Shown one piece after another: positions 1-32,984 of a DNA stretch of 48,266 bases (its first letter is position 1; every line of letters starts with the position of its first letter). The stretch comes from a virus. The stretch covers positions 1 through 48,266 of IMG/VR virus record IMGVR_UViG_3300036980_000753. One strand, given 5' to 3'. The translations under genes and the position numbers were made by a program. Below the pieces are notes generated by a model, which was not told the DNA's origin, ran no database searches, and worked only from the letters and a program-made list of their open reading frames with translations.

Positions 1-2220
1 ATATGCACCATACAGGTAGGCATTCTGGGTCATAAATCCTGAGATGCCTTCTAGTTGATGTTGCCATGTGGTCCCACCATCTGGAGAAAGCTGCAATTGA
101 ATTACGTCAGTAGCTTGAATTGGCGTCTGAAATACAACCCGCACTCTGGAGCGGGCAGCACTAGTTGTAGAGTTGAAACTAATGAAGCCGACACCCTGCG
201 GCCCGTAACCAGTGACTGAAGTTGTATCATCAAAGTTAGCTGATGTGTCTGCAGTAGTGCTCCAAGCATACTCAACATCGTTAGCGCCGAGGTTGACGGT
301 GCCGCTGCCTGCCCATTCGGCGACAGGAATTAAGGCCCGGATGCTGAATGATAGTGCGTTGCCGAAGCCAGTGTAGGTGCTTGCGCTGCCGAAGAAGGTC
401 CTTGCCCTTGCAACGGCGTCGCCGGTGATTGCGCTCTGGACAATCGCAAAGTGTGTTGCGTCATAAGCCACGACGATACATGGCACCGTCGACTGCACTA
501 AACCGTCAGCGCCAGTATTGAATGTACCACTGCCAATTTCTGAATCTGCAGCCGATCCGCCAGTGAGTGTGGCTTTGGTTGTGTCTACCGTGAGACCTAA
601 CGGAATCGTAAATAAGTAAATACCAGAGCCGCCGCTGCCTGCTCCCTGCTCAAAGTCCCATTTGATTTCCATGGAATCGCCAATGCGTTTCCATGTGGAG
701 AGATTTCTTACAATGGTCCCCACAGTCGGGTTGGTTGTCACAGCGGTAATAAGCTGAGTGTAGGCTGTCGCAGGCGAAATCGCAGCACCCTGCACAACCG
801 TGCCAGGCCCAACCACGATGTTATCCAGCTTCACCGTCCAAGCAAGCGCACTCACAGTCGCAACATGGAGTATCAAGCGGTAGCTTGTCGATGTGGTGCT
901 ATCAAAAGTCACCTGAAATGTGCCCGAGGCTGCTGGCACAGAGACCGACGAAGGCGTGATGAGAACCGAGTTGGTGACGTCATAGACGTAGACCGTGAGA
1001 TCGCCAGCGACGTAGTTCGCATCTGTCGCGAGCAGATCGAATTCGATTTTCAGCTTCTTGGATTTGTCTGGCGCATCAATTGAGAAGTTGTAGCGAGCGC
1101 CTTCGCCCTGGCCGTTGACAGCGGACTTGGCAATGGAGAAGTCGTAGCTGCCGCGCATAGGAGACGTTGGGTTCGCGCTCAGAGTGATAGTCGTCGGAGA
1201 ACCGCTGTCGCCATCGACTGGTGTGCTTCCGGCTGTGTCTTTGTAAGCAGCCCAGCCTGTCGTAGTGCCGCGCTCAAAGTCACTGTTGGCAATGTAGTTG
1301 ATGTCATTGCGCGGCTTGTTCAGATTCGCATGCCGACGAACCGAGAGGTTCGAAAAGACGGTCGTCACGTAGTCCGACGAACCATCGGTTTTCACGGCAT
1401 ATAGCGGCACGTACCTAAGCAGATCAATCTGCGCTGGCGTGTTAGCGAAGACAATGAACTGCCCGCTCGTACCAGACGAGATCGCGTATACCTTGCGGTC
1501 AGCGCTGCCCACGCTCGTCTGCGATGGCAGGACGCCAGTGTCTAAGTAGACATAGTAGGCAGTCGAAGCAGCTGGGGAGATGACGCCCGCAGTATTGACG
1601 GCAGATTTGAGGTTGAAACTGATGTCAGATGCGAGGTAGAGCTCACGGCCATCATCCAAGAAGATGGAGCCAGCTTTAACCGACGCAACGTTAGTGGCGA
1701 TTCCCTGCAGTTTGAATGAAGAGTCTCCCGAAGCCCCTGGGATAAAGATCTTACTGCTGTTACTGAAAACCAAAGCCTGCCCATCTTCTGGTGCAGTCGT
1801 CGTAATATCGATGTCTTTGATGTCGCCCTGCGACAGATACAGCGGATCGAATTTAACCGCGACGGCAAAGGTTAGATTGTTCCCGCCAGAGTTGTTGGTA
1901 ATCTGAAGAGTCGTGCCCTCGAAACCGACCTTCTCAATCACGGTAAAGGCACTACGAGCTGGCGTAGTGTACGGCGTAAGGGATACCCACTCGCCGCCCG
2001 TGAAGTTCAGGAGCTCGTAGTTTAGAGATGTGATGTCGGTATAGAAGTTGTGTAGAAGGTCTACCGTCTCAGTCTGATCAAAGTCCGCAATCTCAAACCA
2101 GCGGCTATTGATAGAGTCGCCGATCTTTTTATAGAGAGCCTCGATGGAGGCATGCAGACCAGCTCCGCCAGTCGTGCCTAGTGCGGGATGGTCTAACTGT
2201 AGTCTAGAGATCACGGCCAT
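1..2220 (-). CDS. Tail fibre / receptor-binding-like protein, 3' end outside window
   Basis: An open frame runs from ATG at 2220 to the left edge without a stop: 740 residues visible, C-terminus missing. An AGGAG ribosome site lies 8 nt before the ATG. The sequence is rich in Gly, Ser, Thr and Asn and largely beta-type. The N-terminal part (about 20-130) has KKIGDSINSRWFEIADFD and is followed by repeated beta-rich segments. Near residues 305-325 is NYIANSDFERGTTGWAAY, a motif I associate with carbohydrate-binding-like modules of phage fibres. Around 455-500 is VVGPGTVVQGAAISPA followed by WKRIGDSMEIKWDFE, echoing the N-terminal KKIGDS pattern. It is the last gene of the leftward tail operon, where receptor-binding proteins usually sit. 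Function is inferred from position and composition. Confidence 0.7.
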   Translation of the reverse strand, partial: MAVISRLQLDHPALGTTGGAGLHASIEALYKKIGDSINSRWFEIADFDQTETVDLLHNFYTDITSLNYELLNFTGGEWVSLTPYTTPARSAFTVIEKVGFEGTTLQITNNSGGNNLTFAVAVKFDPLYLSQGDIKDIDITTTAPEDGQALVFSNSSKIFIPGASGDSSFKLQGIATNVASVKAGSIFLDDGRELYLASDISFNLKSAVNTAGVISPAASTAYYVYLDTGVLPSQTSVGSADRKVYAISSGTSGQFIVFANTPAQIDLLRYVPLYAVKTDGSSDYVTTVFSNLSVRRHANLNKPRNDINYIANSDFERGTTTGWAAYKDTAGSTPVDGDSGSPTTITLSANPTSPMRGSYDFSIAKSAVNGQGEGARYNFSIDAPDKSKKLKIEFDLLATDANYVAGDLTVYVYDVTNSVLITPSSVSVPAASGTFQVTFDSTTSTSYRLILHVATVSALAWTVKLDNIVVGPGTVVQGAAISPATAYTQLITAVTTNPTVGTIVRNLSTWKRIGDSMEIKWDFEQGAGSGGSGIYLFTIPLGLTVDTTKATLTGGSAADSEIGSGTFNTGADGLVQSTVPCIVVAYDATHFAIVQSAITGDAVARARTFFGSASTYTGFGNALSFSIRALIPVAEWAGSGTVNLGANDVEYAWSTTADTSANFDDTTSVTGYGPQGVGFISFNSTTSAARSRVRVVFQTPIQATDVIQLQLSPDGGTTWQHQLEGISGFMTQNAYLYGAY

Positions 2221-2235
2221 TTGGGTAGCTCCTAA

Positions 2236-2643
2236 TCAGATTCCGTAGGTAGCAAAATTGATATTATGGGCTTCGAAAGGTGCGCGATGGAGTGTCCCAT
2301 CATCATACACGGATACTTCCTCATCCCTCGTCTGGATCTTTAAGCCGACCACCTGAGACATCGGTTGGAGTTTGCCGCCCGCTACTGACATAGGTACTGA
2401 TGCTACAGCAAGCCATTGGAAGTTTCGAAAATCCTGTCCTGGAACCCGCACGACTGGCTTAACCTCTCGCGTCTCTATGTTCTTAGCCTCGATGATCGCA
2501 CTAACAAGGCCTTCGTGGTTGTGACACCAGGCTTTGGTGCTCAAGTCATCCTGCGAGCCTTGGTTAGACCACATCCCAAATTTCGTCGGTCTATCCGCCC
2601 ACTCGTAGCGCCAGCGTAATAAGTATTTCTTTGGTTGGCTCAT
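2236..2643 (-). CDS. Small tail-module protein, unknown function
   Basis: 135 residues, between the fibre gene and another tail protein and separated from both by only a few bases, so surely co-transcribed. It is soluble and mixed alpha/beta with no signal peptide or membrane segment. The N-terminus reads KKYLLRWRYEWADRPTKFG, followed by a His/Cys patch (AWCHNHEGL, about 38-46) and a C-terminal DDGTLHRAPFEAHNI. I do not recognise the family. Its place between hub/distal genes and the fibre suggests a minor tail or fibre-attachment component, which is inference. Confidence 0.6.
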   Translation of the reverse strand: MSQPKKYLLRWRYEWADRPTKFGMWSNQGSQDDLSTKAWCHNHEGLVSAIIEAKNIETREVKPVVRVPGQDFRNFQWLAVASVPMSVAGGKLQPMSQVVGLKIQTRDEEVSVYDDGTLHRAPFEAHNINFATYGI

Positions 2644-2646
2644 TGG

Positions 2647-3315
2647 TCAAGCTGTGTAGCTATAGTTGAAAACGAGCTCCCACTGAATGTAACCGCCTTG
2701 GCTGAAGCTGTTTGGGATGTAGAGTCGAGTTTTGAGATGAGCAGCATCGCCCAAAACCGTGTCCGCAGCTTTGCCGATCTGTCCTGCTACAGGGCTGCTA
2801 GCTGCCGTTTCTCCTGGTAGATTGTAGACCATTGCCGATGCTGCAATAGTGAACGTGCTAGCAAGGCTGATGCCGTCTGTGAGTCCATCACCATAGATTT
2901 TGACGACGCTAGGAAAGCCCGACTGGTCGAATTGATTGGTAGTGCTTGCATCCCAGTCCATGTCGATCCAAAAACCGCCGCTCAAACCGTCTGCGTTATT
3001 TTTGGATGAACCAGAGGCATTGGCTAGGTTCTTTAGGGCAGTAAAGTCATTGGCAGCACTATCAGCGCCCCCGTATGTGAAGCCAGTTCCCACGCCATAG
3101 GTCTGAATAAACGTACCGCAAGACGTGATTGGATCGATTGTCGCGTTATGTGACACAAATAGTGGCTGGCTGCCGGTATTCGCGCTTTTCAGGATCACGG
3201 GACAATAGCTGTTATTAACACAGCTGCCCAAGTCGCACCCCGTTCCGCCTGAGGCCAGAGCATCAGCTACTGCTGAACCATCTAGAGTCTCACTAATTGT
3301 CAGAAGGACAGCCAT
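2647..3315 (-). CDS. Putative minor tail protein, unknown function
   Basis: 222 residues starting at an ATG preceded by AAAGGGAG. The composition is Gly/Ser/Ala/Asn-rich and beta-type, like phage tail surface proteins. Several cysteines lie in the first 70 residues (GCDLGSCVNNSYC, then TSCG near 64), unusual for a cytoplasmic virion protein. A central stretch has GGFWIDMDWDAST, and the C-terminus ends in an aromatic beta strand (YIQWELVFNYSYTA). No family is recognised. It is tightly packed in the tail operon with its neighbours (3-12 nt gaps), so a virion role is likely. Confidence 0.6.
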   Translation of the reverse strand: MAVLLTISETLDGSAVADALASGGTGCDLGSCVNNSYCPVILKSANTGSQPLFVSHNATIDPITSCGTFIQTYGVGTGFTYGGADSAANDFTALKNLANASGSSKNNADGLSGGFWIDMDWDASTTNQFDQSGFPSVVKIYGDGLTDGISLASTFTIAASAMVYNLPGETAASSPVAGQIGKAADTVLGDAAHLKTRLYIPNSFSQGGYIQWELVFNYSYTA

Positions 3316-3327
3316 GCTAATCTCCCT

Positions 3328-5049
3328 TTAAGTTTCTTCTGCGATAGTTGCCGCTGTGCCGCCAGTGATGCCAGTAAAAGTTGGATTATGCCCCGGAAAA
3401 GGCATCATCTGAAAAGACCAGACCTTGATCGGTATCTTTATTCCTACGGGATCGTATCCAATCTCTCGGATCATAGCAGGAACATCATTAAACTGAGACC
3501 CCTGTATATTAACATTGATTCGGACAAAGTCCCCAATATCCAAAAGCATGCCGCGCCAAGTTAGCGCCATATCGATGACTTCTAGATAGGCAGAGGCTAT
3601 CCTGAGGATCTCCTTTAGTTGATTGACCACAGAAGATTCTTCATAAAGATTCGGAAATACTATTCTTTTTGAGATTTCTTTGCTTGCCTGCAAGATTGCA
3701 GCTGCATTCTTGTAGATTTTGGTCTCGCCAAAGTTCTCATTCGCATTAGGCAGAAAGTTAAAGGAGGCTCTCGCCCTGTTAAAGTTGTTACGATCATCCA
3801 ATTTTGGCACAAAAGAGTCCGCAACTATGTCCCAGTTCTTCACAGGAAAGGTAGGCACAGCCACAAAGTCGTCTAGGTGGAGCGAGTTGATCTTTAGCTT
3901 AAGGTCGCGATCTACAAAAGCCTCTAGTCTCACCTGCTCAAGCATAGATAGGACGTAAGTTAGGGCTGGCTGTGGCTCTTGGATCCATGCTCGTGACTTG
4001 ATGGAGGCTATGGCGGACTCAGAGGGGCTGTTCTTGTCACGGTAAGTAGCCCAAGAGCTATCAAAATCGCCACTAACTACCGCGCCATTCGTGTAATTAA
4101 GCAGGATATCTTGAGCCTGGGAGATCAAGTTATCGTCGTATGAGCCCAGATCCTTGCCTTTGACCTGCACAAAGAACTTGTCACCGCTCTTATACTCGAA
4201 CAGAGCTCCATCCATAAGTGTTAGGCAGGGAGGACTAGTCCCAGATTGCCTAAGTTGGAAGGCTCGATTGTTAATAATCCCGACTACGTCGGCACCATCG
4301 AAGTTGAAATAGGTCTGGCCCCGCAGGCAATACACCTTAGTGATATCAAATAGCGTGTTGTCATTATCAGATATGACTAATTCTAGCAGCGTATTGAATG
4401 CCGCTACGCCGCCATTCAAGCCGTTGACGACATAGGCTGGAATCGAGGCACCCTGCTCTTGGACGTTTACAGTCCAGTCCCCGTATACCAGCGGAACAAT
4501 TGTATTCTCTACATCGCCCTCTATGTCTGGGTAATCCGAGGCTTTGAAGACAGCCTTGGGGAATTCGACATTGATCTTCTCAAAGTCGTTTCGCGCGACT
4601 AGCGTAAAGCTATTAACCGTTCGCCCAAAGCCACCCTGATCCGTGACCTGGCCACTAAAGATCTCTTTGTATGTAGAGGCCACATCACGCAGCCCAATCT
4701 TCACGGATACCCGCTTGCCTATCCATCCGCCAAAGTCGTCACCAGCTGGAAGTATGTTGTTGTAATACCCATCAGCGTTATTAATTTCTAAAGAAACCTG
4801 GCTGAATTCTAGCGTAGGAGATAAAAAATCACCGACAGTCCGAGTGACAACCGGGAAAACTAAGCGAGCTTCGTAGTAGGTATCTCCTACGTATTTGTTC
4901 CGGTCTGATAGATGCAAGGTCCCAGAGAATGCCGTATCTATATCAACGATCATCTCTAGCTGATTTACCAAGTTGTCATGGCAATCATCTAGAAAGTCTT
5001 GATCTAAAACCGTAGCGGTTTCGTAGGGCTTTCTATCCGAAGTTGCCAT
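3328..5049 (-). CDS. Baseplate / tail hub-like protein
   Basis: 573 residues directly downstream of the distal-tail-like gene, the usual position of the tail hub or tail-associated protein. After a short N-terminal helix region it has strands resembling the first hub domain (RLVFPVVTRTVGDFLSPTLE and VSLEINNADGYYNNIL, about 60-105). These are followed by GKRVSVKIGLRDVASTYKEIFSG (about 112-133), a pattern of gp27/hub-type proteins. A later region (about 355-520) has a second-hub-domain feel, with LRLEAFVDRDLKLKINSL and WRGMLLDIGDFVRINVN. Assigned from order and these patterns. It could also be classed as a Gp27-family or siphovirus tail-tip protein. Confidence 0.6.
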   Translation of the reverse strand: MATSDRKPYETATVLDQDFLDDCHDNLVNQLEMIVDIDTAFSGTLHLSDRNKYVGDTYYEARLVFPVVTRTVGDFLSPTLEFSQVSLEINNADGYYNNILPAGDDFGGWIGKRVSVKIGLRDVASTYKEIFSGQVTDQGGFGRTVNSFTLVARNDFEKINVEFPKAVFKASDYPDIEGDVENTIVPLVYGDWTVNVQEQGASIPAYVVNGLNGGVAAFNTLLELVISDNDNTLFDITKVYCLRGQTYFNFDGADVVGIINNRAFQLRQSGTSPPCLTLMDGALFEYKSGDKFFVQVKGKDLGSYDDNLISQAQDILLNYTNGAVVSGDFDSSWATYRDKNSPSESAIASIKSRAWIQEPQPALTYVLSMLEQVRLEAFVDRDLKLKINSLHLDDFVAVPTFPVKNWDIVADSFVPKLDDRNNFNRARASFNFLPNANENFGETKIYKNAAAILQASKEISKRIVFPNLYEESSVVNQLKEILRIASAYLEVIDMALTWRGMLLDIGDFVRINVNIQGSQFNDVPAMIREIGYDPVGIKIPIKVWSFQMMPFPGHNPTFTGITGGTAATIAEET

Positions 5050-26730: not shown

Positions 26731-29700
26731 TTATACGTCCAGTTTCTCGCCAGGCGGTAACATGATCAGGGTACAGCGGCAGTTGTGGCTCACGAATCCT
26801 TCTGCTATATAGTAACCACCAACCGTCTGGAGGTTATATACATGGCCCTCGAAAGAAGACCGGACATCGACACTGACCACATCATCAAGCTCCACTTCGA
26901 GGAGAAGCTCTCCGTCGCGCAGATCAGCAGGATGCTTAATGTCTCTAGAACTACCATCCTGGGACGTCTGAATAAATGTGGGCTCACTCAACGCGGAAGA
27001 TCCGAGGCTGAATTTCTCAAATGGAGCCGAATGGATAGGGAGCAAAGACTGGCCCAGGTTCGCGCTGCTAATACCAGGATGCGTGGCTCCGACCCCACCA
27101 AAAGACTGCTTATCTCCGCCAAGACTAGGTCTATCACCATGAGCAAAGTTGGATTCGGCGAGGCTGAAGTCCATGCCCACTTGAAAGCTCTTGGTTTCAA
27201 TTCCATTCTTCAGGGAGTCTGGGACACCTACAATATTGACATCATGTGTGGAACCGTCGCGGTGGAAATCAGCGCGTCCTCCGTCTACCCTCATAGGTGC
27301 AAAAGAAGACTTAAGCATCGAACTGAAAACTTGATCAATGCCGGATTTAATGTGATTTACGTCTCGCTGCGTAGTAGCCGCAGTATCGAACCCGCCTGTC
27401 TTGAATACCTTGGAGCCTTCGCTAAGGCTTCCCAGTCCGATCCAGCCTTTATCCGACAATACAGGATGATTAGGAGTTGCGGTAAGTTGCTTGCCGCTCT
27501 TGAATTTGACGGTAACCATTGGTCCCCTGTAGAACCTTTGGAATGATTTTTCCATACCAAGAGCTTCAACATTTGTGCCAGCTGGGAAACAGTTGATGAC
27601 CTCGTTAGCTGGCCCGCCTATGTCTCTAGGCCAGCGCAGGCCATTGCTGAAGTCATCTTCTGCCGCAACAGTTTCAGCCTGCAGCTCAACGTGAGAGTCA
27701 CGGACCCTAGCATCACCAGCGTTTAACCAGGCTTTGCGCAGTCCAGGTATAACTTTCTGTGCGTTCTTGAGAGCTGCACCCTGACCAATGGAGACAGCTG
27801 TTAGCGTCTCAGTCCTAGCTATTGTCTCTGCCTTGCCATTCGTAGCAGCAAAGTCGCCAAGCTCTTTAGCTACGCGAGTGATGATCTCACTGATGGATTC
27901 ACCCCGCTTAGTGCCTTGAGTGATTGAAGCCATAATAGATTCTGTTCTGGTGTCGCTGATCCTATCGAAGCTCTCGATGCCTCTTTCCACTAGGATCTCG
28001 CGGCGACCCTCTGCATCTTTCTTTCTAAGCACAGCAATCTTTTCTTTGTCTCTGTCGTTGATCACAAACTCTATCTGCGAGTCATAGCCGAGCTCAACCG
28101 TGCTAAGAAGAATATCGGTGTAGGCTTCTTTCCATTGCGTCTCTAGCTTAGCGAAGGCTTGGCTAAGCTCTCTTCGCAGCTGTGTCTTAGACTTAGGCTC
28201 TGCTGCCTTAGTCTCTATCAAAGATCTCTTGATTATGGGTTCAGCCAACTCAGCCATGCTTATTAGAGTATCTAGAGCAAGCTCATAGACCGCCTTGCCT
28301 TCATTGTCCTTTACGGTTTCTTCCATGCTTTTGACGTATCGATCTACCCAGCCAGCACTACGCTCATGCACGAAAGCTAGCAGGGTAGCTGCCTTGTCAA
28401 TCGTAGGTTGCTCTATAGATTGGACAGGCTCAACTTGCGGAGGTTGCTCTACAGCTGGAGCAACAGAACCGGGTTCAGGAGTCGGACTAAAGCCAGCTCC
28501 AACCGCACCCATGATCGCCTCAGCATCTTCTACACTAAGCGAGAAGGCTACCCGTAAGATCTGCACCCCAGTTTCGCGCGGGATCGAGCCTTGGGCTACT
28601 TGGTTAACGACGTCGACTAGGCTAGTGACCTGTGCGCCGTTGAGAGATTGCTGAGGAGTCGTGGAGGCTTGGTCTGCTACCTCTTGCGTGATGTCAGTCT
28701 CAGCTGCTGGTGCTGCTGGTGCTGCTGTCGGCTCGGCTGCCGGAAGAGCTAACAGAGGATTAGTGACAATGGCAGGAGCTACAGATGGGAACTTTGGAAC
28801 CGAGATGAAGGGAGCATCGTCGGCAGGAAGGCTGCTGGGCTTCAGATCCCAGACCTTCGACCTGACTTCATTAACTGACATGCCGCCATTGAGCATCTCC
28901 TTTGCTAGGAGAGCCTTAGATAGCTGGTCATCCTTAAGAGACTCAACATTCTCTAGATCAAACTTAAACGAGAAGTTTGAGCCTAGCTGCTTAGCAAAGA
29001 ACTTATTTAAGCCGCCTTCAATCATGCGGCAGGTGGGGATTAAAGTAGCTTCCCAGAAGTTCCTGAGAGCTGTCTTGTATTCCTCTGAGCCTAGAGAGCC
29101 TCCGGTCTGCAAACCGACTTCATGCTTAGGCACTTTGAGCAAGCTAAGGATGGTTTCCCTGTTGCTATTAATGAGATCTGTCAGCCGTTGATCTGCAATA
29201 GAATGCGAGACTGTCGTAGCCTTCATGCCCTTAGGCAGCCAAAGAGCTCGTCTAGCATTGCTTCTACCGGTATGAGCAAGCTCAAAAGACCGCGTCATTC
29301 TTAACGCCTGGTCTTCGTTAACCTGCTTATCCATCTCAATGATCATGCTTGGAGTAGCTTGTTTTAAATAAAACTGATTCAAATAGTCCTGGCTGTACCG
29401 ATTAAACAAAATGCTTTTTCGCCCAGCTAGGAATGGCGAGAGCCCGTGTATCAGGGAACCCGGGTTCGGTCTACGGATATGTATGATCGAATCAACAAGG
29501 TACTCAATGACCTGTTTCTTCTGCTCTTTGTCCTGGATATCACTATCGCCTGTCGCGAAGTTATAGGCTCTGATTGAGCCATCGCGATCAAAAGCAATGT
29601 CAGCCATAGATGCACGCAAAGAGACTAGCCATTGATTAGACTTTGAATACCAAAGGATGGCATTGCCGAGCAGTGCATAGTTGACGACGGTATTATACAT

Positions 29701-30072
29701 CCATGAGTGATAGTCCTGCATGGGATTCGGAGCCTGCACTAGATCATTTAGAGGATGCCCATCAGCATAGGCAATGGTCTCGACGCCATCCTCTAAGGTC
29801 TTGCGCACGACGTTTAAAGGCTGACTGCTGATCTTGTTGGCGATTAGGTCAACGACAATATAGACCCAGTCTTCAGTAAAAAAGAGTGATTCAATGGTGG
29901 ACATGTCAGCCCAGGCTTGAACCTCTTCTTTCCATAGATCGTTTACAGCATGGCTGGGATCAGCATCTCGAGAGAAGTTATAGCCTTTAAATTGCAGATC
30001 CTGCTCATCTGACTTGTCAGTTGCGATGTTGATATACTCATGCAGTTTGTTTTCGATGTCTTTATCACTCAT
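26731..30072 (-). CDS. Portal-MuF fusion protein interrupted by an intein
   Basis: 1113 residues before splicing, 843 after. AGGGG lies 7 nt before the ATG. Residues about 20-420 are an HK97-type portal: WVYIVVDLIANKISSQPLNV, YHSWMYNTVVNYALLGNAIL, IHIRRPNPGSLIHGLSPF and VPKHEVGLQTGG. A Pro/Ala/Thr-rich linker (about 430-570) and a helical region lead to a MuF head-morphogenesis domain (about 715-827): ISEIITRVAKELGDFA, IARTETLTAVSIGQGA, KAWLNAGDARVRDSH, then PANEVIN joining CRCTLIML across the intein. The intein starts at Cys828 and ends at Asn1097, leaving Cys1098 as the +1 nucleophile. Role: DNA entry ring plus an internal head protein. The order terminase, portal, protease, capsid is canonical. 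Confidence 0.92.
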   Translation of the reverse strand: MSDKDIENKLHEYINIATDKSDEQDLQFKGYNFSRDADPSHAVNDLWKEEVQAWADMSTIESLFFTEDWVYIVVDLIANKISSQPLNVVRKTLEDGVETIAYADGHPLNDLVQAPNPMQDYHSWMYNTVVNYALLGNAILWYSKSNQWLVSLRASMADIAFDRDGSIRAYNFATGDSDIQDKEQKKQVIEYLVDSIIHIRRPNPGSLIHGLSPFLAGRKSILFNRYSQDYLNQFYLKQATPSMIIEMDKQVNEDQALRMTRSFELAHTGRSNARRALWLPKGMKATTVSHSIADQRLTDLINSNRETILSLLKVPKHEVGLQTGGSLGSEEYKTALRNFWEATLIPTCRMIEGGLNKFFAKQLGSNFSFKFDLENVESLKDDQLSKALLAKEMLNGGMSVNEVRSKVWDLKPSSLPADDAPFISVPKFPSVAPAIVTNPLLALPAAEPTAAPAAPAAETDITQEVADQASTTPQQSLNGAQVTSLVDVVNQVAQGSIPRETGVQILRVAFSLSVEDAEAIMGAVGAGFSPTPEPGSVAPAVEQPPQVEPVQSIEQPTIDKAATLLAFVHERSAGWVDRYVKSMEETVKDNEGKAVYELALDTLISMAELAEPIIKRSLIETKAAEPKSKTQLRRELSQAFAKLETQWKEAYTDILLSTVELGYDSQIEFVINDRDKEKIAVLRKKDAEGRREILVERGIESFDRISDTRTESIMASITQGTKRGESISEIITRVAKELGDFAATNGKAETIARTETLTAVSIGQGAALKNAQKVIPGLRKAWLNAGDARVRDSHVELQAETVAAEDDFSNGLRWPRDIGGPANEVINCFPAGTNVEALGMEKSFQRFYRGPMVTVKFKSGKQLTATPNHPVLSDKGWIGLGSLSEGSKVFKTGGFDTAATTQRDVNHIKSGIDQVFSSMLKSSFAPMRVDGGRADFHRDGSTHDVNIVGVPDSLKNGIETKSFQVGMDFSLAESNFAHGDRPSLGGDKQSFGGVGATHPGISSANLGQSLLPIHSAPFEKFSLGSSALSEPTFIQTSQDGSSRDIKHPADLRDGELLLEVELDDVVSVDVRSSFEGHVYNLQTVGGYYIAEGFVSHNCRCTLIMLPPGEKLDV
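26783..26811 (+). promoter_or_regulatory. Possible sigma70-type promoter for antisense nuclease
   Basis: TTGTGG (26783-26788), 17-nt spacer, TATATA (26806-26811). It starts one base inside the intein edge and lies 31 nt before the nuclease ATG. Matches to consensus are 3/6 and 4/6, so it is weak. The -35 hexamer is antisense to the block G Ser-His-Asn codons and the -10 to Tyr-Tyr-Ile. Confidence 0.4.
26829..26833 (+). promoter_or_regulatory. Ribosome-binding site of antisense nuclease (GGAGG)
   Basis: GGAGG ends 8 nt before ATG 26842. This favours the ATG over an earlier in-frame GTG at 26785, which lacks a good site. The same bases, read on the minus strand, encode Leu-Gln of the intein block F motif NLQT. 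Confidence 0.8.
26842..27546 (+). CDS. HTH + Vsr/EDxHD-like homing endonuclease nested antisense in intein
   Basis: 234 residues encoded wholly within the intein DNA on the opposite strand. Residues about 10-45 are a helix-turn-helix (HIIKLHFEEKLSVAQISRML then NVSRTTILGRLNKCG). Residues about 105-180 resemble very-short-patch-repair/EDxHD nucleases: GFGEAEVHAHLKALGF, YNIDIMCGTVAVEISASSVY (acidic Asp, then V-E-I), Pro-His-Arg, and INAGFNVIYVSLR. The E...D...E...H pattern is consistent with this PD-(D/E)xK-related fold; exact catalytic residues need alignment. Codons are in register with the intein frame, so TTA, CTA and TCA are excluded throughout. Likely role: cleaving intein-free portal genes to drive homing. 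Strong RBS and coherent domains argue that it is real. Confidence 0.88.
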   Translation: MALERRPDIDTDHIIKLHFEEKLSVAQISRMLNVSRTTILGRLNKCGLTQRGRSEAEFLKWSRMDREQRLAQVRAANTRMRGSDPTKRLLISAKTRSITMSKVGFGEAEVHAHLKALGFNSILQGVWDTYNIDIMCGTVAVEISASSVYPHRCKRRLKHRTENLINAGFNVIYVSLRSSRSIEPACLEYLGAFAKASQSDPAFIRQYRMIRSCGKLLAALEFDGNHWSPVEPLE

Positions 30073-30081
30073 CGCAATCCC

Positions 30082-32511
30082 CTAATTAAATGGGCTGTCA
30101 TTGTCAGAATCACTGATTAAATCTCTGTAGTATCTGTCTAGGTCCATAAGCCTACGATCCTTTGGCAGATCGTCTAAGAAGCCTACTTCAAATGTACCTT
30201 GGTTATACTCTGACGCGGCAGCATTGGCTAAAGCTAAGGCGATCACAATATCATCATGGGAACCGGATGAAGCATTATAGCGCATCATCCCGGTATCGGA
30301 GACTGTTACCTCATATGAGGCTAACTCTGAAAGTAATAGAGGCCAATTAGGTAGCTCTATCTCTTTCTTTTCGAAGGTCAGCCCCAGGCCATTGATGACA
30401 GAGGCTTTAGACTGATTTGAGAAAGTGAAGCCCTGAAAAGGCATAGGGAAATGGCCAAGCATGTCATCTAGAGCTTCACCTACACCAGTCTTGTCATGCC
30501 AGATGGTGCCAATAGATTTGAAGTTCTTGCTGAATTGAAAGAGCTCTTTCACAGCTGTCACGTAAGAGATGCCATGGAACCGTTGGAAGCCTACAACCTT
30601 CCTTGGCATCGTGTTGTAGTCGATGGCTAGGAAGACTGCGTAATCCCGCTGCTTAGCCCAGTCTACGCCTATCACAACGTCTGCGTTCTTAGCCGACTGG
30701 TGTATCCAGTGCTGGCTAGTAGAGCCATCGAACTCTAGCTCTAACCCTCTAACGCAATCAGGGACTCCCAAGAATACAGATGACTCTTCGCAGAACTCAG
30801 CTAAATAGAATTGGCGAAACAGTCTATCTGGTAAATCTCTGCGAGCAGCATCTATGACGCTCTGATGAACCATAGGGTTGGCTGTCGTGGGAGCATGGAT
30901 AGCCAGGTACTTGGGATTCTTACCAGCTTTCAGAGCCCACTCCATCTCTGCCTTGCATTCCATGTACCGCTTGTAGAACCAGTTCTTTCCTAGTGGCGTA
31001 CTAATCCACATAGAAGGACCACGGGTAAAGGTCTGTGTAGTCCTAGCTGAGACGTAGGCTTGGTAAGGCATCTTAGCTGCCTCATCCCCTATCTGCCCGT
31101 GAATGGCTGAGCCCTCTAGATCCATTGGGTTCTGCGTGTGCATGAACTCAATCTCTGAATGGAGATAGGGGAATTTGACAACCATCTTTGTCTGCAGGAA
31201 TTCAGAGTGAGGAGCTGGCGGTACGATCTTACCGAAGTAGTCCATACCGATCTTAGCCTGCCGATAGATGGGAGCTAGCCATCTCCACTTAGCAGAGCGC
31301 TTGAGCATAGCGGCGTTAGTAAGACAGGTAGCAGCCCCTATCGAGTTGTGGGTAGGTATGCAGGCTTCTGTAGTGAGGAAAAGATGGCTAGGGTTCTCTA
31401 CCTGTATGCACATCACAGGAACCGATGAGATCTTTTCTACGTTTAAGATAGTGCGCTGCTTAGACTTAAGCCCTGTAGTCTTTCGCAGCCTGTCTGCTTT
31501 GCGCTTCAAGCGGAACACTGGAAAGTCTGTACTGAACCAGACCCGGTAGCACCACTGCTTATCTACGCCGTTTAAGCGCCCGATCCGTCCAGCCCTGTTG
31601 ACCTTGATACCTAAGCTCATTGCCAATAGAGCGACAGCATCAGCAAGGCTTTTGTTAGTATTGTCAAAGCAGCAGTTCCCACGCTTATCAACCGTGCCTT
31701 CAGTGTCCATCAAGGCTTGTAGCAAGGCTATACGGTCTTTGACGCTTGAGACTAAATATTCTTGAGGCACATGTTTATTGCCACACAATCTATGTTGATT
31801 GAGTAGCGTAGTTAAACCTTTAACTCTCCATTTCCAAAGGTCCCCGACTTTATCGACAGTAAAACCTTCATCCCTAATATAGTCAGCTAGTTCATGGTCT
31901 GGTTTAGTATAGGAACCGCCACCAGTATCGCCATCCCCGAGCCAGACGCCTAGAGTATATGGCGGGATAGGCAGCTCTCTCTTAGTAAATTCAAGCGGAG
32001 CTGACACATTTGTAACAGCGTGGTTAGGCCTGGATGTTCCACCCATTGCAATGGTCTGAGTTTCAAAAATTTCTAAAGTCGTGCGTTTCCTTGGTTTCGC
32101 TTCTGTCGTCTTGCAGCGGTCGTTAGGCGAGAGAGCTCTAGCCATATTCTTCCGCTCTGTATGCGTAGTAGTCACCCAATCATGTTCAGCATCTGCAATG
32201 ACTTCAGTACCGTCTGAAAAGGTCAGCTTGTAGCAATCGTGGTCATACATGAGATCGGTGGCGTATACGACGCGGGTAGGCTTGCCATGCTCATCAAAGA
32301 CAAAGTCACCTTTCTTAATCTCGCAGAGTGGGATATAACCTCTATCGGGAGTTGGGGTAAGTGTCTGATAATATTCGGCTTTCCCAAATTTTGTGCCGCA
32401 TGCCACAAAAGTTTCTGCCACATCGCCATAGAGAAAGGCTCGCATGATGAGCTCTTGCTTACGACTGTGTGGCTTAGGCGGATGGATCTTGACCTGTGCT
32501 ATATCGCTCAT
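30082..32511 (-). CDS. terL: Terminase large subunit interrupted by a class 3 intein
   Basis: Start chosen at ATG 32511, which overlaps the small terminase stop (ATGA); an in-frame ATG exists at 32535. 809 residues, about 464 after splicing. The Walker A motif CGTKFGK/SIGAATC is split by the intein immediately after its Lys. Downstream are LEGSAIHGQIGDEAAKM (Walker B with Asp-Glu), a motor segment ISTPLGKNWFYKRYMECK, and an RNase H-like nuclease with DVVIGVDWAKQRDYAVFLAI, TIWHDKTGVGEALDDML and SGSHDDIVIALALANAA carrying the acidic triad. It uses ATP to pump DNA into the prohead and cuts it. Without splicing the ATPase would be dead. Confidence 0.93.
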   Translation of the reverse strand: MSDIAQVKIHPPKPHSRKQELIMRAFLYGDVAETFVACGTKFGKAEYYQTLTPTPDRGYIPLCEIKKGDFVFDEHGKPTRVVYATDLMYDHDCYKLTFSDGTEVIADAEHDWVTTTHTERKNMARALSPNDRCKTTEAKPRKRTTLEIFETQTIAMGGTSRPNHAVTNVSAPLEFTKRELPIPPYTLGVWLGDGDTGGGSYTKPDHELADYIRDEGFTVDKVGDLWKWRVKGLTTLLNQHRLCGNKHVPQEYLVSSVKDRIALLQALMDTEGTVDKRGNCCFDNTNKSLADAVALLAMSLGIKVNRAGRIGRLNGVDKQWCYRVWFSTDFPVFRLKRKADRLRKTTGLKSKQRTILNVEKISSVPVMCIQVENPSHLFLTTEACIPTHNSIGAATCLTNAAMLKRSAKWRWLAPIYRQAKIGMDYFGKIVPPAPHSEFLQTKMVVKFPYLHSEIEFMHTQNPMDLEGSAIHGQIGDEAAKMPYQAYVSARTTQTFTRGPSMWISTPLGKNWFYKRYMECKAEMEWALKAGKNPKYLAIHAPTTANPMVHQSVIDAARRDLPDRLFRQFYLAEFCEESSVFLGVPDCVRGLELEFDGSTSQHWIHQSAKNADVVIGVDWAKQRDYAVFLAIDYNTMPRKVVGFQRFHGISYVTAVKELFQFSKNFKSIGTIWHDKTGVGEALDDMLGHFPMPFQGFTFSNQSKASVINGLGLTFEKKEIELPNWPLLLSELASYEVTVSDTGMMRYNASSGSHDDIVIALALANAAASEYNQGTFEVGFLDDLPKDRRLMDLDRYYRDLISDSDNDSPFN
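31345..32379 (-). mobile_element. Class 3 intein (345 aa) with LAGLIDADG endonuclease in terL
   Basis: Begins at Ala (AEYYQTLTPTPDRG), not Cys or Ser, and ends P-T-H-N before Ser+1. It carries the class 3 Trp/Cys/Thr triad: Trp68 in DAEHDWVTT (block B, also lacking the usual Thr), Cys324 in VPVMCIQVENPSH (block F), and Thr343 just before His-Asn (block G). The endonuclease motifs are LGVWLGDG (143-150) and LLQALMDTEG (219-228), with likely acidic residues Asp149 and Glu227. In class 3 inteins Cys324 would form the first branched intermediate. Insertion is in the ATP-binding P-loop, a typical conserved target. Confidence 0.9.
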
Positions 32512-32984
32512 TGGTCGTCCACGCTGAGCAGGCATTGCAGATCTTCAATTGGATCTATCTCAGCTTCACATGCTTCAGCTTCAATCACTTCCGGCTTAAG
32601 TAGATCCTGTAACAGCCTGCCGTCTTCCGTCATAGACGTAACGTAGACAGTCTGAGTAGCTACTGTCACATCAATCTTGTCCTTGACCTTGCCGATGCGG
32701 CTGCGATCTAAGATGAAGTTCAGCTTGCTGTGATCGCCTTCTGTGTAAGCCTTGAGCCATATGGAGATGACAGACTCTTCTAACAGCGTTAGATGTCCTG
32801 ACTCTTTTAGCTCCATGATCTGAGATAGCGGAAGGTCTGCCAGCTTATCGATCATATCCTTCAGCACTCTCGGCGATAGCTGTCTCAGCTTCTGAATTTC
32901 TGGTGGCGCTTTTGGTCTACCGAGGGGATTCAAGACCTGTCCTGGCTTGATATCTCTGCCACCTGTTTTGATTCCCTTAGCCAT
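32508..32984 (-). CDS. terS: Terminase small subunit
   Basis: 158 residues. The N-terminus GGRDIKPGQVLNPLGRPK is the signature of a phage small-terminase/DUF5681-like family. It is followed by helices KLRQLSPRVLKDMIDKLADL and TLLEESVISIWLKAYTEGDH, LNFILDRSRIGKVKDKID, and an acidic C-terminus (EACEAEIDPIEDLQ). It precedes and overlaps terL. Role: DNA recognition and loading of the motor. A ribosome site is weak. Confidence 0.8.
   Translation of the reverse strand: MAKGIKTGGRDIKPGQVLNPLGRPKAPPEIQKLRQLSPRVLKDMIDKLADLPLSQIMELKESGHLTLLEESVISIWLKAYTEGDHSKLNFILDRSRIGKVKDKIDVTVATQTVYVTSMTEDGRLLQDLLKPEVIEAEACEAEIDPIEDLQCLLSVDDQ

Follow-up and report, generated by a model that had tools for sequence, protein, structure and literature searches.

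Evidence for a putative two-in-one homing intein in a phage portal-MuF gene, with the endonuclease encoded antisense to the intein

Inteins that contain an endonuclease within their own reading frame are already known, and so are homing enzymes of the EDxHD type. In the canonical large inteins a Hint domain and an in-frame homing nuclease (LAGLIDADG or HNH) form one mobile unit that lies in a conserved motif of an essential gene. The locus analysed here resembles them in this arrangement, except that in them the intein polypeptide itself includes the nuclease domain, whereas here the nuclease is inferred to be a separate protein from the opposite strand with start signals of its own. With I-Bth0305I and the Vsr-like nucleases our predicted homing endonuclease (HEN) shares the catalytic domain, as judged from a sequence profile and a predicted fold, along with extra DNA-binding regions; but I-Bth0305I belongs to a group I intron of a phage, while our HEN gene lies antisense to an intein. 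The fractured genes of split inteins have a free-standing gene of Vsr/EDxHD type between the intein halves, and thus also combine an intein with an EDxHD-type nuclease gene outside the intein polypeptide, the difference being that our intein is contiguous and is overlapped by the gene in antisense. Some nuclear group I introns carry endonuclease genes opposite to the host-gene strand, as in our case, but no second open reading frame is needed there, whereas here two proteins would be read from the same bases. The closest published case found is that of the ShiLan domain and the Pacc40 gp60 insertion, in each of which an HNH endonuclease lies out of frame within a methylase gene of a phage (PMC11855218). 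There too a HEN is hidden in another frame of an insertion that is open in the host frame, but it is proposed to be read from the host transcript, i.e. from the same strand, and the insertions are not identifiable as inteins; an antisense case is not mentioned in that paper. A full-text search of the published literature, with limited coverage and few subscription papers or preprints, found no description of an antisense intein endonuclease. Provisionally, we regard as new an intein whose homing endonuclease is antisense to it and, by inference, translated separately.

The stretch of DNA analysed (hereafter the window) is the IMG/VR virus record IMGVR_UViG_3300036980_000753, of 48,266 bases. 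Its minus strand contains a portal-MuF fusion gene of 1113 aa (26731-30072) with matches to Phage_portal (E 1.4e-49), Phage_Mu_F (E 8.5e-10) and Intein_splicing (E 3.2e-5). Near the C-terminus of this protein, leaving a C-extein of only 16 residues (CRCTLIMLPPGEKLDV), lies an intein of 270 aa (26782-27591, minus strand), identified by its splicing motifs, the boundaries in aligned relatives, the ends of the predicted Hint domain and Foldseek. It is inserted in the conserved MuF motif N|CRC, directly ahead of the Cys. Its junctions read NEVIN|CFPAG...FVSHN|CRCTL. The portal-MuF protein and the intein form a single uninterrupted open reading frame and not two separately translated split halves. 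The splicing motifs comprise Cys1, block B (T39-P-N-H42), block F (GHVYNLQ), H269-N270 and Cys+1, of which Cys1, block B, block F, the terminal Asn and Cys+1 are kept across 26 relatives, the penultimate His being replaced by Ser in many family members. No match to a LAGLIDADG, HNH or other endonuclease was found within the intein frame, and the intein/endonuclease region gave no Rfam match. In the predicted structure, the mean pLDDT per 10-residue block is 87-96 over residues 1-60 and 88-93 over residues 231-270, and the top Foldseek matches are inteins (Mtu RecA, RadA, DnaB and GyrA, probability 1.00). By this model the intein has a Hint fold, with a middle of low confidence. The N-terminal splicing part (residues 1-69, 27385-27591) overlaps the 3′ end of the endonuclease gene and the C-terminal part (residues 229-270, 26782-26907) its 5′ end, while a linker predicted to be disordered (residues 129-228, 26908-27207, pLDDT ~32) is antisense to the helix-turn-helix and middle of the endonuclease.

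From the intact splicing motifs and the predicted fold we infer that the head protein would be restored by splicing of the intein. It can be argued instead that the endonuclease is functional but the minus-strand polypeptide is no splicing intein, and that MuF tolerates an unspliced insertion, as the Ser in place of the penultimate His in many members and an intein starting with Ala in Rhodococcus phage REQ3 might suggest. We hold this to be highly improbable, given the conservation of the other splicing residues listed above, the match of the predicted fold to inteins, the purifying selection on the intein frame, strongest over block B (omega 0.19), and the fact that the insertion interrupts a conserved MuF motif. 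It may be noted that the gene for the terminase large subunit in the window (30082-32535, minus strand) has an apparent intein near the Walker A region with an in-frame LAGLIDADG domain (PF14528, E 3.2e-6), apparently a conventional homing intein in the same genome.

The HEN gene runs on the plus strand from an ATG at 26842 to a TGA ending at 27546, encodes 234 aa, and is wholly antisense to and inside the intein; an alternative GTG start at 26785 would give 253 aa. The codon edges of the two frames coincide (mirror phase), HEN residue k being opposite intein residue 251-k. A Shine-Dalgarno sequence, GGAGGT (26829-26834, plus strand), is found 7 nt before the ATG, and on the minus strand these bases are part of intein block F. 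The ATG itself is the reverse complement of the His codon in block F, for which CAT gives ATG and CAC gives GTG. In the window, as in most loci, it lies within the intein at exactly 60 nt from the C-terminal edge. The HEN start is ATG in 40 of 42 loci as against 22 expected from codon usage, and over these 42 loci the pairing energy with the anti-Shine-Dalgarno is -6.4 kcal/mol, compared with -2.7 kcal/mol when the codons are redrawn. The start codon and the Shine-Dalgarno are thus kept beyond what intein coding needs. A promoter scan found no sigma-70-like site upstream of the HEN reading frame in the window. In the Salmonella record PK1, an antisense reading frame across the intein stretch is annotated as a hypothetical protein.

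The plus-strand protein has a helix-turn-helix at residues 11-45 (26872-26976), supported by GcrA, Sigma70_r4 and HTH matches and predicted as three helices with pLDDT 92-94, followed by a catalytic domain of EDxHD/Vsr type at residues 104-199 (27151-27438) in which E107, Y130, D133 and E142 are conserved. On comparing the family profile with solved structures we obtained I-Bth0305I (3r3p) at E 4.6e-6 (2.7e-6 in a second run) and a Vsr-like protein at E 1.5e-6; 12 of the 18 HEN members matched MTES_1575 and 5 of 18 DUF559, at E up to 1. The predicted HEN structure (pLDDT 82) is also closest to I-Bth0305I (3r3p; Z 10.4 over 93 residues, rmsd 3.3), with Vsr (Z 10.3) and Ngo0050 (Z 9.9) as further matches. 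As to the full E-D-x-H-D motif, E107, D133 and E142 are conserved; a later His (VEVFGGGWH) is present in some members (L064, L066 and L068) and absent at that place in the window. The profile and fold matches support an HTH plus EDxHD/Vsr-type nuclease, from which DNA cleavage is inferred. The initial annotation of this DNA had described a 270-residue minus-strand Hint intein without a LAGLIDADG or HNH core and a 234-residue plus-strand protein with an HTH and a Vsr/EDxHD-like domain, and its lengths, strands and coordinates all hold. Four lines of evidence bear out its further claim that the endonuclease is not part of the intein polypeptide but its antisense: homology, predicted structure, selection acting on both frames and the conserved translation signals.

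An open mirror frame is by itself weak evidence, because in this phase only TTA, CTA or TCA codons close the antisense frame. The antisense reading frame could then be a by-product, open because mirror frames stay open easily and alike between loci only through kinship of the inteins. We therefore consider this permissiveness together with a shuffle test in which the intein protein was held fixed and its codons were redrawn 1000 times from the gene's own usage, the antisense translation being scored against a HEN profile built without the locus and its near kin (leave-one-out). Such redrawn codons still average 28-80 bits to the HEN profile at most loci, as a by-product would have it, but the observed scores at the fully scored loci (144-271 bits) exceed the null maxima (66-134). 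In the window, 187.5 bits were observed as against 47.3 +/- 13.6 in the null (maximum 94), and the plus-strand frame was open in none of the 1000 synonymous draws. Elsewhere z was 9-13 at 12 of 13 other loci, the remaining one being that of E. coli phage KMB36 (z 1.7, with only 111 residues scored). Across the HEN match the mirror frame is free of stops in 67 of the 69 loci examined (some phages being counted twice because two collections contain them); stops are usually numerous in the other two antisense frames. TTA, CTA or TCA occurs at none of 17,905 HEN codons, compared with 12 of 292 in a free-standing copy from Acinetobacter phages, and the strand opposite that copy contains stops. The by-product explanation is also at odds with the HEN being conserved better than the intein and with its independent homology to HTH families and I-Bth0305I. 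A chance or mirror-image origin is ruled out by the synonymous shuffles and the free-standing copy, and we give it practically no weight. In two IMG/VR contigs (L065 and L066), a single stop falls inside the HEN frame and the intein frame is open, which we infer to be a pseudogene state of the HEN that fits the gain-and-decay cycle usual for homing elements.

Selection on the two frames was counted over 14 pairs (3,788 codons) with a simple mutation model. Some pairs share ancestry, so the omega values are rough, and as related sequences are not independent the p-values are optimistic. Of the single changes with an effect on the intein protein, 77% leave the HEN protein unchanged as against 32% expected (omega_HEN ~0.14), and of those with an effect on the HEN, 62% leave the intein unchanged, again against 32% expected (omega_intein ~0.28). 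The order is reversed at the end of the HEN that lies over intein block B (HEN omega 0.27, intein 0.19). Both frames are under purifying selection, and the direction of this result is not in doubt. As to how two proteins may share these bases, most of the nuclease is antisense to the linker of the intein predicted to be disordered, where the intein frame would need little beyond the absence of stops, and the two nuclease ends, which overlap the folded Hint domain, are truly dual-coded. The HEN strand VAVE (residues 139-142, 27256-27267) is, by the alignments, the mirror of an FH(G/R)D motif in the intein frame; FHGD resembles an intein signature but is probably set by the nuclease since it mirrors this strand. 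The initial annotation had suspected that this gene is also hidden in other portal/MuF inteins whose middle is rich in Gly, Asp and His, and it was right. Collecting MuF inteins and reading their opposite strands, as proposed there, gave the positive count of open mirror frames reported above, and omega for the plus-strand frame lies below 1 as was expected of a selected gene. A broken HEN frame with an intact intein was observed in one pair of loci, L065 and L066, as expected of occasional HEN decay. The pair is widely distributed, deeply diverged and fully overlapping, with both folds recognisable and both frames selected, and would make a good test case for the evolution of overlapping genes.

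A tblastn search with the plus-strand protein matched 125 phage records at E<=0.01, mostly antisense to annotated MuF or head morphogenesis genes or to unnamed genes in the same position. The hosts of these phages include Salmonella, Escherichia, Pseudomonas, Klebsiella, Gordonia, Mycobacterium, Vibrio, Edwardsiella, Cronobacter and Aggregatibacter. The intein as query matched 123 phage records. Alignment scans added 48 loci from IMG/VR and 3 from bacterial genomes, one of the latter in an Ignavibacteriota MAG; a scan of viral contigs with the window HEN as a single protein gave no match. Vibrio phage 1.113.A, taken up as a candidate for a short mini-intein without a HEN, was rejected, as its full sequence contains the antisense HEN. 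A second MuF position, ahead of CTIDGKTRPSH or CRARDG, is occupied by an element of this kind in phage Sejanus and in E. coli phage KMB36, which implies at least one change of site. In Rhodococcus phage REQ3, the minor head protein gene (1134-2912, a Phage_min_cap2 gene) has the putative intein starting with Ala (HPN|AVLEG), and its antisense reading frame keeps the EDxHD core and lacks the HTH.

In closely related phages the whole intein is a precise in-frame presence/absence element, observed in relatives and not in the window's own lineage. Of 38 Pseudomonas phages matching the MuF gene, 14 match the query over its full length and 23 match it in the exteins alone, at 95-98% identity, and occupied and empty genes differ by exactly 807 bp in frame. 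For a Salmonella MuF gene, 56 of 379 matching records contain at least 80% of it and most of the others among the matches listed contain only the exteins, with an in-frame difference of 816 bp. This agrees with the earlier proposal that nuclease and splicing element move together as one unit, cutting and homing remaining inferences. Taking homology, dual selection, conserved start signals and clean presence/absence together, we consider it very likely that the locus is a two-in-one homing intein, an intein on the MuF strand with a separate HTH-EDxHD endonuclease on the opposite strand, whose transcription, splicing, cleavage and homing we infer. The negative promoter scan and the loss of the HEN frame in L065 and L066 speak against it. 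On the late-gene strand the intein would be translated within MuF and splice out at the conserved NC(R/K)C motif, between its N and the Cys that follows, while on the opposite strand the ribosome-binding site and ATG of the HEN gene would give the endonuclease as a separate protein. During an encounter of two phages, or of a phage with a prophage, this enzyme may bind and cut an intein-less MuF at that motif, and repair from the occupied copy would then install the whole intein.

Some phage homing enzymes exclude competitors. The antisense protein might accordingly be real but no longer homing, acting as a regulator, a repair nuclease or a superinfection-exclusion nuclease that favours the resident phage, and both that general precedent and an HTH with a Vsr-like fold, compatible with several DNA roles, leave some room for this. 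We rate it as improbable, as a gene within a self-splicing element whose presence varies between phages has the pattern of a homing element, and the top match in sequence and in fold is a homing endonuclease. If the homing intein reading is right, an intein may carry its endonuclease as the opposite strand of the same DNA and not as a domain, and mini-inteins judged immobile for want of a nuclease domain may carry an antisense one, so that surveys of mobility may undercount. Homing can be tested directly, as phages of Salmonella, Pseudomonas and Gordonia that carry the element and others that lack it are in culture.

A free-standing HEN is found in three phages of Acinetobacter, IME285, BUCT629 and P1068, where it is convergent with a MuF gene that has no intein and ends PMCKCRAKL...; it is missing from related phages. 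Such a copy next to the empty target gene, like the presence/absence of the intein at one site, bears on cleavage and homing only indirectly. In IME285 and BUCT629 it occupies 455-1348 (L008) and 2830-3723 (L009), annotated only as a hypothetical protein. The HEN tree places this copy among the intein-antisense HENs, within a clade of 99/99 support. This suggests that it escaped from an intein, with the reservation that the tree is unrooted.

A different intein of 275 residues is present at the same MuF site in the Gordonia phages Nordenberg, Lennon, Sitar and relatives. In Nordenberg (L077, MH976514.1) the intein occupies 1869-2693 (plus strand) and its mirror antisense frame, 1980-2570 (minus strand), encodes a protein of 196 residues with AAYVAAFIDGEGTV, of LAGLIDADG type. 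The assignment is based on matches to phrog_5046 (E 2.2e-15) and I-MsoI (E 0.0013), on sense-strand homologues that are homing endonuclease genes of Caulobacter phages, and on the shuffle test (36.1 bits observed, null maximum 21.1); the reading frame has no Pfam match. As this intein is unrelated to that of the window, antisense endonucleases have entered inteins at least twice. Whether they are a recurrent solution of phage inteins, with EDxHD and LAGLIDADG enzymes in unrelated inteins at the same MuF site, and whether the opposition of strands times the system, can be put forward only tentatively, at somewhat under an even chance; the nuclease would be made while the late MuF strand is silent and be shut off once late transcription runs through. 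Separately, Vibrio phage 1.238.A (L079) has two Hint-domain genes, one in the terminase large subunit and a short one nearby, possibly a split or decayed intein.
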